From Oryzomonas sp. (GTDB lineage: Bacteria > Desulfobacterota > Desulfuromonadia > Geobacterales > Pseudopelobacteraceae), in NCBI GenBank assembly GCA_031292255.1, contig JARLHN010000026.1:1-45859 (forward strand): a DNA stretch of 45,859 nt, in the 5' to 3' direction. A program made the position numbers and the translations under genes. The notes beneath the pieces were generated by a model, which worked only from the letters and a program-made list of their open reading frames with translations, was not told the DNA's origin and did not search any database. Each line of letters starts with the position of its first letter. The first letter of the stretch is position 1. Shown here piece after piece: positions 983 through 4,777 of this stretch.

Positions 983-1876
983 ATGGAAACGAGATATCTG
1001 AAGACTCTGTTGGAGGTGCTGAAAAGCGGGAGCTTTTCCCGGGCGGCTGATGTTCTCAATGTTACTCAGTCGGCGGTTTCCCAGCGAATCAGATTTATGG
1101 AGGAGCAGTACGGGGTGTCACTGATTGATCGAGCCGGAACTGCGATTACTGCCACCGAGGCCGGCAGCACAGTTTTAAAAAATGCTCAACAGATCCTGGC
1201 GTTGGAAAAGGAGCTTGATGATGAGTTGAAGGGGCTCAAAACAACGTCTAAGTTTTCCGTGGGATGCACACCTACATTCGGGGTTGTCTACCTACCCAAA
1301 GTGCTCAGCCTGTTTTTTCTAGCTAATTCCGAAGAGTCGCGAATCAAGTCATATGTTAACACCCCTGGGATGGTGCTGAAAGGTGTGTTGGGGAATGAGT
1401 ACGACATCGCCGTCATAGAGCATTGCTTAGAACTGGATTTTTCCGATGTCATCGCAATCTCCCTACCGCCGGACGATCTGGCAATCGTTTCCGCTCCATC
1501 CATGGGTCTTGCCAAAGGGACTCTCACTCTTTCGGAGTTGCTTGAACAACGTCTAATAAGCAGGCGTGAGGGATGCAGTTCCCGATGCCTCCTAGAAAAC
1601 AACCTGGCAAAATATGGAAAGAATCTTGACGACTTCCACAGCATCGTCGTCCATGACGACCTAAACATGACTATTCAGACTACTCTGTTGGGGCTGGGAT
1701 TGGCGTTTGTTTCCAGAAGCCTGGTCAGGGAATACATAGAAAAAGGCAAACTGCTTGAACATGTTGTAGAAGGGTTTTCCTGCTTCCGGTCGAGATCAAT
1801 CGTCTTCAAACGGAATCATCATGACAGCAAATGTTTTACGAGTTTTATAAAATGTGTGGAGGGGCTCATGGCCTGA
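983..1876 (+). CDS. LysR-family transcriptional regulator
   Basis: The 297-residue product has the usual LysR length. Residues ~1-60 form the winged helix-turn-helix, with the typical GSFSRAADVLNVTQSAVSQ stretch and a following wing. Residues ~88-295 fit the periplasmic-binding-protein-like effector domain. The gene is divergent from the cytochrome gene and separated from it by an operator-rich region, so one or both may be targets, but nothing in the sequence names the effector. The ATG at 983 gives a complete HTH. The next gene is on the same strand but more than 200 bases away with its own promoter, so it is probably a separate unit. Confidence 0.9.
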   Translation: METRYLKTLLEVLKSGSFSRAADVLNVTQSAVSQRIRFMEEQYGVSLIDRAGTAITATEAGSTVLKNAQQILALEKELDDELKGLKTTSKFSVGCTPTFGVVYLPKVLSLFFLANSEESRIKSYVNTPGMVLKGVLGNEYDIAVIEHCLELDFSDVIAISLPPDDLAIVSAPSMGLAKGTLTLSELLEQRLISRREGCSSRCLLENNLAKYGKNLDDFHSIVVHDDLNMTIQTTLLGLGLAFVSRSLVREYIEKGKLLEHVVEGFSCFRSRSIVFKRNHHDSKCFTSFIKCVEGLMA

Positions 1877-2014: not shown

Positions 2015-2032
2015 TGTGCCAATAGTTGCACA
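2015..2032. promoter_or_regulatory. palindromic site 1, likely operator of the sigma-54 regulator
   Basis: TGTGCCAATAGTTGCACA is an inverted repeat (TGTGC-N8-GCACA) upstream of the sigma-54 activator gene. A close relative with the same 8-base spacer (14 of 18 bases equal) lies just after that gene at 4408-4425. Site 1 overlaps the -35 hexamer of a candidate sigma-70 promoter, which fits autorepression by the activator. Confidence 0.55.
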
Positions 2033-2093: not shown

Positions 2094-4400
2094 ATGGAAC
2101 CGATCATAACCTTCAAGGAGCGCTGTCGGCTCTGCTATTCCTGCGTGCGCAGCTGTCCGGTCAAAGCCATCAAGGTAGATAACGGCTTTGCCCAGATCAT
2201 GTACGATCGCTGCATCGGCTGCGGCAACTGCCTGAGCTGTCCGCAACAGGCCAAGGCCGTGGTGGACAGAATGGGACAGACCCAGGAGTTGCTGACCTCG
2301 GGCCAGCCTGTCGTGGCCGTACTGGGGTGTTCTTATCCGGCGTTTTTTCACTCCATAACGCCCGGTCAGTTGGTGGCCGCACTGAAAAATCTTGGCTTTT
2401 GCGAGGTGCATGAGGGGGCCTACGGCGCCCGCATGATTGCCGACAGTTACAAAATGCTGCGGACCGGACAGCCGCTGATCTCTTCCCATTGCCCGGCGGT
2501 CGTCAGCCTGATCGAACGCCATTTTCCCAAATTGATTCCGAACCTGGCGGCTGTCGTATCGCCCATGATCGCCATGGGACGATTTATCAAGGGCATTCTC
2601 GGCACCGAAACCAAAGTCATCTATATCAGCACCTGTATTGCCGGCAAATTCGAGGTACAGGCGGCCGAATCGTCCAACGCAATAGACGTCGTTCTCACCT
2701 ACCGCGAGATCGACAAGTTTTTCAAGAGTCGCGGCATCAACCCTGCATCGTTGGCGGAAGCGCCGTTCGACGGACTTGACCCGGGCAACGCACGCTTATT
2801 CACCCTGACCGGAGGACCGCTCAAGGTCTTCGATATTGAACCGGACTTTCTGGATACCGATATCATCTCCGCCGAGGGTGAAAATCACGCCATCAATATC
2901 ATTCGCGACCTGGCCACGGGCAGCATTTCTCCTTCCTTCGTGGATTTGCGGCTCTGCGACGGGGGCTGCGTCGATGGCCCTGCCCGCGACCATACGCTCA
3001 ACCATTTTTTCAAACGCAAACTGATCGTCAACTACAACAACAGCACTCTTTCCTATACTACGGCACCGCACTACCGCTCGACGGCATCGATGCCCGACCT
3101 GGTGCGCCCTTATTCCGACAAGTCACGCAAACTGCCGAGCCCGGGCAAGGACGACATCAAACGCATCCTGCATTCCACGAACAAGTTTACGCAAAGCGAT
3201 GAGCTCAACTGCCGCGCATGCGGCTACAACACCTGCCGCGAACATGCCGTGGCGGTTTTCCAGGGATTGGCGGACCTTGAGATGTGCCTTCCCCACAATT
3301 TACAGCAGGTCGAGGATGACCGTGGACGGCTGATGCAGAAGTATGAATTGATCCGGCGCGAACTGGACCGGCAGCTCGGCGACGACCCGATAGTGGGGAA
3401 TGACAGCAAGATCCTGGAGGTCCTGGAACTGATCCGCCAAGTGGGGCCGACACCGACCACTGTTCTCATCAGGGGCGAGACCGGCACCGGCAAGGAATTG
3501 ACGGCACGGGCCATCCACCGCCTGAGCCTGCGTAACGATAAGCCGCTGGTAACGGTCAACTGCACGACCATCACCGATTCCCTGCTGGAGAGCGAACTGT
3601 TCGGCCACAAAAAAGGAGCATTCACCGGCGCCATCGGGGAAAAGAAGGGACTCTTCGAAGCGGCTAACGGCGGCACGATCTTTCTGGATGAAATCGGAGA
3701 CATCACGCCCAAACTGCAGGCGGAGCTGTTGCGCGTACTCGACCTGGGCGAGGTGCGGCCTGTGGGAGGGGCTATTCCCAAAAAGGTGGACGTGCGCCTG
3801 ATTGCCGCCACCAACAAGGATCTGGAACAGGGCATTCGCGAAGGATGGTTCCGCGAGGATCTCTACTACCGTCTGAATGTCTTCAACATCCATCTTCCGC
3901 CGCTGCGCAACAGGCAAGAGTCCATTCCAAGCCTGACCGAGCACTTCCTCGACAAGGCCCGCAAAAAACTGAACAAGAATATCGCCGGGATCGAAGAGCG
4001 GGCCGTCAAGGCCATGCAGCACTACCCCTGGCCCGGCAATATCCGTGAGATGCAAAATGTCATCGAACGCTCCTCGGTCCTTACCAAAGGCACCATCATC
4101 AGACTGGAAAACCTTCCCACCATCTTTGCCGACACATACGAACGGTGCAGCAATGGAGAGGTCAATCGGCGCCAGGCCTCTTTCAAGGCCGAGCGGGAGC
4201 TGCAAGTAGGCCGCACCGAAAAAAACCTGATCCAGCGCTATCTCGAAGAAACCGGCGGTAACGTGGCCAAGGCGGCCAGACTGGCCAATATTCCCCGCCG
4301 GACCTTTTACCGCCTCCTGGAAAAACATGGCCTGGACATCGCACAACGGGTGCGGACAAAATCGGCGATTCAGGATGACTCGGAAAGTGTGTATTTTTGA
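2094..4400 (+). CDS. sigma-54 activator with ferredoxin and H-cluster-like sensor
   Basis: The product has 768 residues from the ATG at 2094 (AAGGA 8 bases upstream; the frame is open further 5' but without a comparable signal). Domains in order: two ferredoxin-type 4Fe-4S motifs (residues ~10-60); an iron-only-hydrogenase large-subunit-like region (~70-300); an FeS domain with C373, C376, C381 and C398; a sigma-54 AAA+ domain with intact Walker A (GETGTGKE from G461) and GAFTGA loop (508-513); and a Fis-type HTH (~720-750). The four cysteines that bind the hydrogenase H-cluster appear conserved: C133 (SSHCP), C181 (STCIAGKFE), C288 and C292 (LCDGGC). The cysteine used for proton transfer in true hydrogenases is His132, and the lysine three residues after the second ligand is replaced. 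It is therefore more likely a redox or H2/CO/NO sensor than an enzyme (inference). Likely targets are itself and the next gene. Confidence 0.88.
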   Translation: MEPIITFKERCRLCYSCVRSCPVKAIKVDNGFAQIMYDRCIGCGNCLSCPQQAKAVVDRMGQTQELLTSGQPVVAVLGCSYPAFFHSITPGQLVAALKNLGFCEVHEGAYGARMIADSYKMLRTGQPLISSHCPAVVSLIERHFPKLIPNLAAVVSPMIAMGRFIKGILGTETKVIYISTCIAGKFEVQAAESSNAIDVVLTYREIDKFFKSRGINPASLAEAPFDGLDPGNARLFTLTGGPLKVFDIEPDFLDTDIISAEGENHAINIIRDLATGSISPSFVDLRLCDGGCVDGPARDHTLNHFFKRKLIVNYNNSTLSYTTAPHYRSTASMPDLVRPYSDKSRKLPSPGKDDIKRILHSTNKFTQSDELNCRACGYNTCREHAVAVFQGLADLEMCLPHNLQQVEDDRGRLMQKYELIRRELDRQLGDDPIVGNDSKILEVLELIRQVGPTPTTVLIRGETGTGKELTARAIHRLSLRNDKPLVTVNCTTITDSLLESELFGHKKGAFTGAIGEKKGLFEAANGGTIFLDEIGDITPKLQAELLRVLDLGEVRPVGGAIPKKVDVRLIAATNKDLEQGIREGWFREDLYYRLNVFNIHLPPLRNRQESIPSLTEHFLDKARKKLNKNIAGIEERAVKAMQHYPWPGNIREMQNVIERSSVLTKGTIIRLENLPTIFADTYERCSNGEVNRRQASFKAERELQVGRTEKNLIQRYLEETGGNVAKAARLANIPRRTFYRLLEKHGLDIAQRVRTKSAIQDDSESVYF

Positions 4401-4407
4401 CCACACG

Positions 4408-4425
4408 CGTGCCAATTTGTGCACA
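4408..4425. promoter_or_regulatory. palindromic site 2, candidate upstream activator sequence
   Basis: CGTGCCAATTTGTGCACA contains GTGC-N8-GCAC and matches site 1. Its centre lies about 120 bases upstream of the start predicted from the -24/-12 promoter at 4510, the usual distance for a sigma-54 enhancer. A second inverted repeat, TTGCC-ACAC-GGCAA, follows at about 4429-4442. Confidence 0.55.
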
Positions 4426-4509: not shown

Positions 4510-4526
4510 TTGGCATGGATATGGCA
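4510..4526 (+). promoter_or_regulatory. candidate sigma-54 (-24/-12) promoter
   Basis: TTGGCATGGATATGGCA has GG at 4512-4513 and GC at 4524-4525, exactly ten bases apart as sigma-54 requires. The -24 half (TTGGCA) is good; the -12 half (TGGCA instead of TTGCA) has one mismatch. It lies between the sigma-54 activator gene and the RHH gene, ~63 bases before the RHH start. Confidence 0.55.
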
Positions 4527-4588: not shown

Positions 4589-4777
4589 ATGGGCAGAATG
4601 AGAGAAAATCCGCGTTACAACGTAATTTCGATGAGAATCAGCGACGAAGAACGTGAACACCTGGAACACCTGATGAGCACGACCCAAAAGAGCGTATCCG
4701 ATATCATGCGCGAAGCCATGGAGTACTTCTCGGCCAAATACGAACTGCAGGCGAACCTGAAGCGGAAGGCAGCCTAA
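4589..4777 (+). CDS. ribbon-helix-helix (CopG/Arc-like) DNA-binding protein
   Basis: The start is taken as the ATG at 4589 because GGAGG (4576-4580) lies 8 bases before it; an earlier in-frame ATG at 4574 overlaps that site. The 62-residue protein has a short beta strand (YNVISMRIS) followed by two helices, EEREHLEHLM and SVSDIMREAMEYF, the pattern of ribbon-helix-helix repressors. No toxin gene follows; a terminator does. It therefore looks like a free-standing regulator under the control of the upstream sigma-54 activator (inference). Targets are unknown. Confidence 0.7.
   Translation: MGRMRENPRYNVISMRISDEEREHLEHLMSTTQKSVSDIMREAMEYFSAKYELQANLKRKAA

Follow-up and report, generated by a model that had tools for sequence, protein, structure and literature searches.

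A sigma-54 activator with an [FeFe]-hydrogenase-like Fe-S domain, a candidate H-cluster-free sensor in Oryzomonas and its relatives

The window analyzed here is a stretch of 45,859 nucleotides from Oryzomonas sp. (contig JARLHN010000026.1), and its forward strand encodes, at 2094..4400, a protein of 768 amino acids in which an [FeFe]-hydrogenase-like iron-sulfur (Fe-S) domain is joined to a sigma-54 activator (hereafter, the fusion). The open reading frame begins with an ATG at 2094 and its stop codon ends at 4400; a GTG at 2016, which would start a longer reading frame, was rejected as an unlikely start and lies inside a conserved palindromic site (2015-2032). From the N- to the C-terminus, Pfam identifies a ferredoxin dicluster, an H-domain, a PF04060 domain, a sigma-54 AAA+ domain and a Fis helix-turn-helix (HTH). 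The ferredoxin-type dicluster, with eight conserved cysteines, spans residues 8-52 (2115..2249, forward strand, as are all domains below; Fer4_10 matches residues 8-48). The H-domain (PF02906, Fe_hyd_lg_C; E 2.4e-45, 155 bits) covers residues 72-296 (2307..2981) and is followed by the FeS domain PF04060 at residues 371-400 (3204..3293), with C373, C376, C381 and C398. The sigma-54 interaction AAA+ domain (PF00158, E 2e-67) occupies residues 433-600 (3390..3893), and nearly all positions of its Walker A motif GETGTGKE (461-468) and its loop GAFTGA (508-513) are invariant in the alignment. The Fis-type HTH (PF02954, HTH_8), at residues 707-744 (4212..4325), scores 39.4 bits against a cut-off of 22. 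Neither a PAS domain nor any sensory domain other than the Fe-S parts was found in the fusion by the Pfam scan.

The hydrogenase-like part was modeled and compared with relatives. An AlphaFold2 model of residues 1-410, based on a 38-row alignment, reached a predicted local distance difference test score (pLDDT) of 81.5 and a predicted template modeling score (pTM) of 0.82, and in a Foldseek search with this model each of the best 50 of 74 rows (E <= 0.001; best E 5e-21, TMq 0.61-0.71) belongs to the [FeFe]-hydrogenase family. The full-length model was poor (pLDDT 68.5, pTM 0.47) and was used for the linker alone, where it predicts, at low confidence, a long helix at residues 399-428 between PF04060 and the AAA+ domain. 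The register of the H-domain cysteines was taken from Pfam, phmmer and MAFFT alignments and not from model geometry. In a 91-row alignment that includes the window in two rows, merges identical proteins and omits copies shorter than 700 amino acids, C133, C181, C288 and C292 are cysteine in 91/91 rows, as are the four PF04060 cysteines. Among the eight ferredoxin cysteines, four are conserved in all 91 rows and four in 89/91, the two remaining rows reading X. The column of His132, at the position of the proton-relay cysteine, is identical in at least 90/91 rows and was nearly invariant in a 38-row alignment (A1). Three residues after the second ligand, where a lysine is expected, the window has Gly184 and the rows shown have Gly or Ala, and a lysine follows at +4 (K185). 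Thus the fusion retains sixteen conserved cluster-type cysteines and a hydrogenase fold, and on these alignments it is neither a product of chance nor an artefact. The original prediction, made from the window sequence alone, had described the ferredoxin motifs and the four H-cluster cysteines, the histidine in place of the proton-relay cysteine, the lost lysine, and the intact AAA+ domain and Fis HTH, and had proposed structure prediction of residues 1-410; all these features were confirmed, and the fold is that of an [FeFe]-hydrogenase. The PF04060 domain, the DNA sites and a small gene at 4589-4777 are additional to it.

The genome that contains the window (3.72 Mb, 88% complete) has the fusion as the sole PF02906 protein found. 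Of 97 relatives, 86 carry the fusion, counting full or partial matches to the N-terminal 422 residues beyond ferredoxin-only matches and distant homologs. Within this count, G039, G078 and G085 have fragmentary or interrupted copies, and in G007, counted as lacking the fusion, the contig starts within the AAA+ portion of this gene. In a 395-genome sample of the phylum, the sigma-54 part was found in the class of the window alone among the fetched loci, which comprise part of the PF02906 matches and include some contigs that stop inside the gene.

Residues beyond the cysteines were inspected in a 116-row table, from which rows under 300 amino acids or with identical first 250 residues were dropped; it covers fetched loci alone, with high-scoring catalytic enzymes over-represented. 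In the hydrogenase CpI, we take P231, P354 and K358 to keep the [2Fe]H ligands in place. In 11/11 fusion rows, the P231 column has Cys, Ser or Gly (Cys 74, Ser 12, Gly 4 and Thr 1 across the 91-row alignment), the P354 column Ser, Thr or Ala, and the K358 column Gly or Ala. The same eleven rows have Ser in the M353 column, His in the C299 column and Arg in the M497 column; C299, M353 and M497 of CpI are described as [2Fe]H pocket residues in PMC8163306 and PMC10055695. In the whole table, 71 rows from HydF-positive genomes and 20 from HydF-negative ones retain Lys358, and it is lost in 20 rows from HydF-negative and 5 from HydF-positive genomes. According to PMC10055695, the residues that hydrogen-bond to [2Fe] in TmHydS are conserved in sensory enzymes, and therefore the fusions differ from TmHydS. 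Catalytically active group C and D enzymes lack the proton-relay cysteine as well (PMC8163306). Judged by these sequences, the distinctive trait of the fusion is the loss of cofactor-holding residues and not the missing proton-relay cysteine. As a side observation, many group A rows (e.g., L141-L159) read TSCSP, with a serine aligned to the first [4Fe-4S]H ligand, which may reflect the alignment or a known motif.

The maturases that would make an H-cluster are largely absent. HydF scores above its curated cut-off in 4/97 relatives (G008, G015, G024 and G084) and HydG in the same four; neither was found above cut-off in 85/86 fusion-bearing relatives or in the window genome (88% complete), HydE having been outside the search. 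Fusion (86/97) and HydF/HydG (4/97) overlap in one genome (Fisher p 0.004, with no correction for kinship). In the 395-genome sample, HydF was found in 0/12 fusion-bearing genomes, of which nine were checked for the sigma-54 part and three were full-length. HydF scores over cut-off in 51 genomes of this sample (53 at E <= 1e-60) and PF02906 in 106, a difference due in part to incomplete genomes. A survey of the fusion against the maturases had been set beforehand as the refuting test of the original prediction; it found HydF and HydG absent above cut-off in 85/86 genomes, with G024 as the exception. Together with the replaced pocket residues, this did not bear out the proposed sensor with an H-cluster. 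Most likely, the domain carries no H-cluster and holds Fe-S clusters only, like eukaryotic Nar1. Because the maturases are missing and the pocket residues replaced, we set aside H2 sensing through an H-cluster, and sensing via a [2Fe]H subsite is unlikely in the fusion.

A palindrome of the pattern TGTGYCA-N4-TTGCACA is the candidate operator of the fusion. In the window it reads TGTGCCAATAGTTGCACA (2015..2032, no strand assigned) and ends 61 nt short of the ATG. In the 300 nt that precede the fusion start, it is present with at most one mismatch at 79/81 loci and exact at 69, mostly 40-110 nt from the ATG; the pattern itself comes from the 81 loci, many of them close kin, so that the counts express conservation and not an independent prediction. 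In 50 sets of dinucleotide shuffles, the mean was 0.06 and the maximum 1 of 81. Among the matches listed genome-wide, a set that G012 and G013 lie outside of, the site at 2015-2032 is the single exact match of the window genome. Likewise, across 15 whole genomes, the listed exact matches lie at the fusion locus, with the exceptions of G009 (one match, in coding sequence, 2.3 kb away) and G022 (two elsewhere). Matches in coding sequence, some 2.3 kb downstream or close to the 3' end of the fusion gene, were discounted, as was a one-mismatch site inside a RelA/SpoT-like gene (named by eye). Separately, three genomes of the genus of the window (L324, L325 and L326) have a one-mismatch operator-like site near a response-regulator-like gene, with a sigma-54-like match (9-10/13) 91 bp further on.

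A second operator copy, CGTGCCAATTTGTGCACA, with two mismatches to the pattern, lies just past the fusion gene (4408..4425, no strand assigned), 102 bp start to start from a predicted sigma-54-type promoter, TTGGCATGGATATGGCA, that was found by sequence scan and matches 11/13 consensus positions (4510..4526, forward strand). The promoter precedes a gene for a small ribbon-helix-helix-like protein of 62 amino acids (4589..4777, forward strand; alternative start 4574), which is the predicted direct target. Family assignment of this protein is weak (DUF6290 1e-4, RHH_1 2e-3, RelB-like 3e-4, all below cut-off). It is 57-63 amino acids long at other loci and starts with MG[RK]MRENPRYNV or a close variant. 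At 70/81 loci, the small gene lies at most 1 kb downstream of the fusion. The other 11 loci are L044, which ends 94 nt past the fusion; L066, with the gene about 10 kb away; the [NiFe]-linked paralogs L106, L107, L108 and L111; L112, with a ptsP-like gene instead; and L050, L055, L068 and L079, with no small gene within 1 kb downstream. Apart from the small gene, the coding neighbors of the main copy appear housekeeping-like by eye and vary by lineage.

The geometry of the two sites is conserved. Before the small gene, an operator (at most 2 mismatches) and a sigma-54-type promoter (at least 10/13) occur 95-120 bp apart, measured start to start, at 67/70 loci, and in none of 50 shuffled sets. 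The spacings fall into groups of 100-104 bp (46 loci) and 110-116 bp (22 loci), with typical values of about 101 and 112 bp, which differ by about one helical turn; 131 and 544 bp lie outside them. An operator with a -24/-12 promoter at the putative target, the arrangement that marks sigma-54 enhancer binding, is therefore what these sequences predict. Of six genomes examined that lack the fusion and have a clear small gene, 6/6 keep its sigma-54-type promoter (11-12/13), whereas in 5/6 (G060, G066, G068, G074 and G087) no operator was found at the right spacing; G060, G066 and G068 belong to one family, and G087 is 81% complete. In G050, fusion and small gene are about 10 kb apart and the operators remain with the small gene. 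The missing operator in fusion-lacking genomes may be seen as a natural experiment, which supports a tie between operator and fusion. In family f2 (L312, L314), the small gene retains its position before a cysS-like gene, and a Sir2-like gene occupies the site that the fusion has elsewhere, both named by eye.

Other lineages appear to have other targets. Four fusion paralogs (L106, L107, L108 and L111) lie opposite a divergent [NiFe] hydrogenase operon, with the large subunit in 4/4 and the small subunit and cytochrome b in 3/4 each (Pfam check on members at L106 and L108). In 4/4 of these loci, an operator (at most 2 mismatches) precedes, by 132-135 bp, a sigma-54-like site (9-10/13) that reads toward the hydrogenase operon. 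The pocket residues are also replaced in the paralogs L238 and L239 of the 116-row table. In L112, L240, L241 and L242, a ptsP-like gene follows the fusion (identified by Pfam in L112 and L240, by motif in L241 and L242), with a sigma-54-type promoter of 10-12/13 and operators (at most 2 mismatches) at less regular distances of 47-183 bp. The predicted target would thus be the small gene in some lineages and either a ptsP-like gene or a [NiFe] hydrogenase operon in others. A [NiFe]-hydrogenase regulon for the copy in the window itself was rejected, since no operator with at most 2 mismatches was found at the two of its three [NiFe] small-subunit matches that were scanned (L275 and L296). A second type of [NiFe] small-subunit gene (L287, L289, L290, L291, L293-L298, L300) has a sigma-54 site of 12/13, located 73-99 nt before the match start, and no operator with at most 2 mismatches was found there.

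In a tree of 75 sequences and 435 columns, the 12 fusion rows form one clade (100/100), which nests with PAS-type and kinase-linked sensory-type rows (97/94). The tree holds genomes of the phylum of the window alone, has some long branches and partly uses class labels that we assigned ourselves; it contains no characterized reference, TmHydS and TamHydS included. PAS domains were checked on a few sensory-type rows (L208 over cut-off, L233 below, L197 none listed). The nearest neighbor of the fusion clade, at a support that is not firm (89/81), is a histidine-kinase branch also without Lys358 (HK59, family f59, L186-L195), with 10 proteins and a HisKA/HATPase output (checked in L188 and L189). 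No HydF match at E <= 1e-60 was found in 6/10 HK59 genomes, two of which (G293 and G376) carry catalytic-type enzymes and may be incomplete. At six HK59 loci (L243-L248), response-regulator genes adjoin, and at most of them also oxidoreductase genes with Fer4_20/Pyr_redox_2 domains (Pfam: L243, L247), which resemble the ferredoxin:NADP oxidoreductase Nfn. We read this tree as suggesting an H-cluster sensor that first lost its [2Fe] site and was later joined to a sigma-54 activator. Also without a HydF match in the genome is a stand-alone form of about 448 amino acids (family f17; L214, L218, L220, L221 and L222), which keeps all cysteines and has Arg in the M497 column; its neighbors in wider flanks (L251, L252) look by eye like PHP-, HATPase- and NuoE/NuoF-like genes.

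Known systems share parts of this architecture. Group C sensory [FeFe]-hydrogenases (TmHydS, M2f) likewise have a ferredoxin dicluster, an H-domain without the proton-relay cysteine, and a C-terminal Cx2Cx4Cx16C FeS domain followed by an output module, and the four cysteines align in sensory-type rows. The fusion differs from them in its replaced [2Fe]-holding residues, its missing maturases and the lack of a PAS match. HydDB divides group C into kinase-linked (C1), chemotactic (C2) and phosphatase-linked (C3) subtypes (PMC5037454), and the sigma-54 activator output of the fusion falls outside these three. In the group D enzyme TamHydS (M2e), ferredoxin part, H-domain and C-terminal FeS domain follow one another as in the fusion (PMC13104023), but this enzyme accepts a synthetic [2Fe] cofactor and is active in H2 turnover (PMC8163306). 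It also has no PAS or sigma-54 module, the latter being present in the fusion. The HK59 branch resembles the fusion as a tree neighbor without Lys358 and differs in its HisKA/HATPase output. Nar1/IOP1/CIAO3 is described in PMC12621388 as a hydrogenase-like protein with Fe/S clusters and without [2Fe]H; the likeness is one of description and not of compared sequences, and, unlike the fusion, Nar1 is a eukaryotic Fe/S trafficking factor with no fused regulator. The AAA+ domain and HTH of the fusion match the NifA, PrdR and NorR models best, below their cut-offs. NifA/NorR-type activators carry GAF or other sensor domains in the place of the hydrogenase-like Fe-S domain. No sigma-54 fusion of this kind was found in the open-licence literature, which leaves out most subscription papers and is no proof of novelty, and none is described in the accessible parts of PMC8924675, PMC2725144 and PMC5701242. 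The fusion to a sigma-54 activator may be undescribed, and the H-cluster-free sensor may belong to a wider group, here only sampled.

Together, the above observations suggest that the fusion is a one-component, DNA-binding, redox-responsive Fe-S activator that arose from a group-C-like sensory [FeFe]-hydrogenase and gave up the [2Fe]H subsite, which we regard as the probable reading. From domain order, cysteines, the absence of HydF and HydG and the operator-promoter geometry, we infer the clusters, the binding and the signal as follows. The protein would bind the operator via its Fis HTH, and an Fe-S chain would run from the ferredoxin part over the H-domain site to PF04060, beside the helix at 399-428. 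A change in this chain, either reduction by ferredoxin-level electrons or oxidation or NO damage, would be passed from PF04060 through the linker, so that the AAA+ ring is freed or blocked. The ring would open sigma-54 promoters, including the predicted promoter of the small gene. As the signal we prefer the state of a low-potential, ferredoxin-linked electron pool, because oxidoreductase genes adjoin the HK59 branch and [NiFe] hydrogenases adjoin the paralogs. The original prediction of a gas or redox sensor that directly drives transcription thus holds as to the hydrogenase-derived domain fused to an intact activator, with operator and promoter at fixed spacing, and is not supported as to H-cluster sensing, given the maturases and the pocket; the signal may be redox state or O2/NO. 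Very likely, to judge from domains and DNA sites, the fusion drives transcription itself.

Several observations weigh against this reading. G024 is the sole relative with both fusion and maturases, the latter on a contig stretch shared with a separate, hydrogenase-like protein of the sensory type (585 amino acids). Seven genomes have HydG at 142-209 bits (under the 312-bit cut-off) and no HydF above cut-off. Loss of Lys358 accompanies loss of HydF, but not strictly (5 + 20 discordant rows of 116). The small gene or a paralog is present in 96/97 relatives (E 1e-5), some of them without the fusion, and hence does not depend on the fusion. G084, which lacks the fusion, keeps an operator-like site (2 mismatches, 113 bp). 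No operator was found upstream of the fusion gene itself in L242, a distant fusion, or, at up to 2 mismatches, at 2/3 [NiFe] small-subunit matches scanned in the window genome (L275, L296). Between operator and fusion start, no strong sigma-54 site was found at the 11 loci scanned; they do not support autoactivation, and autorepression of the fusion is possible. The C-terminal cluster of TamHydS was reported as unresponsive to H2 in PMC13104023, which advises caution on the PF04060 cluster as signal carrier.

The main rival to the ferredoxin-linked signal is that the fusion senses O2 or NO through an exposed Fe-S cluster that becomes damaged or nitrosylated. Without [2Fe]H, the emptied cavity could make a cluster accessible; at one locus (L069:5124-5702), the gene divergent from the fusion resembles rubrerythrin by eye; and two Nar1 Fe/S clusters are rapidly destroyed by O2, according to PMC12621388. 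We consider this unlikely, if the strongest of the alternatives; no recurring oxidative- or nitrosative-stress neighbor was recognized by eye among neighbors that are not all annotated. It is improbable that the fusion monitors, through its apo and holo forms, whether Fe-S clusters or iron are sufficient, and not electron flow, a function with which the sixteen cluster-type cysteines and the Fe-S parts as sole sensory domains by Pfam would agree, as no recurring iron or Fe-S assembly neighbor was recognized by eye. Slightly less probable still, the palindrome could belong to another regulator and the fusion act elsewhere. The assignment of the operator to the fusion is a prediction, and the site kept in G084 would fit another owner; yet the palindrome accompanies the fusion and its paralogs (79/81 loci), remains with the small gene in G050 and is missing in the five fusion-lacking genomes named above. 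Finally, the protein could be a genuine H2-sensing [FeFe]-hydrogenase that acquires its H-cluster through an unknown or borrowed maturation route and activates transcription when it binds H2. This would account for the four invariant cysteines, the nesting among sensory-type proteins and the paralogs beside [NiFe] operons, but is highly improbable in view of the absence of HydF and HydG above cut-off in 85/86 fusion genomes, the replaced pocket, also in L238 and L239, and the lack of another PF02906 protein in the window genome (88% complete).

More broadly, we give a little better than an even chance to the idea that bacteria retired [FeFe]-hydrogenase domains, perhaps repeatedly, into H-cluster-free Fe-S sensors, a bacterial counterpart of Nar1, and that in the class of the window such a sensor was fused to a sigma-54 activator with an operator of its own and with targets swapped between lineages. 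The signals of "sensory hydrogenases" have so far been guessed mainly from domain architecture. Here, sensor and promoter activator are joined in one chain with a predicted operator and target, which would make the signal readable by a reporter. If the domain works without [2Fe]H, other putative H2 sensors proposed on the basis of PF02906 may be Fe-S redox sensors.

Just 5' of the fusion, the window encodes a LysR regulator (983-1876, forward strand). A comparison with the other 80 loci revealed no relative of it, and it belongs to the multiheme-cytochrome-associated family NF041036 (360 bits against a cut-off of 210).

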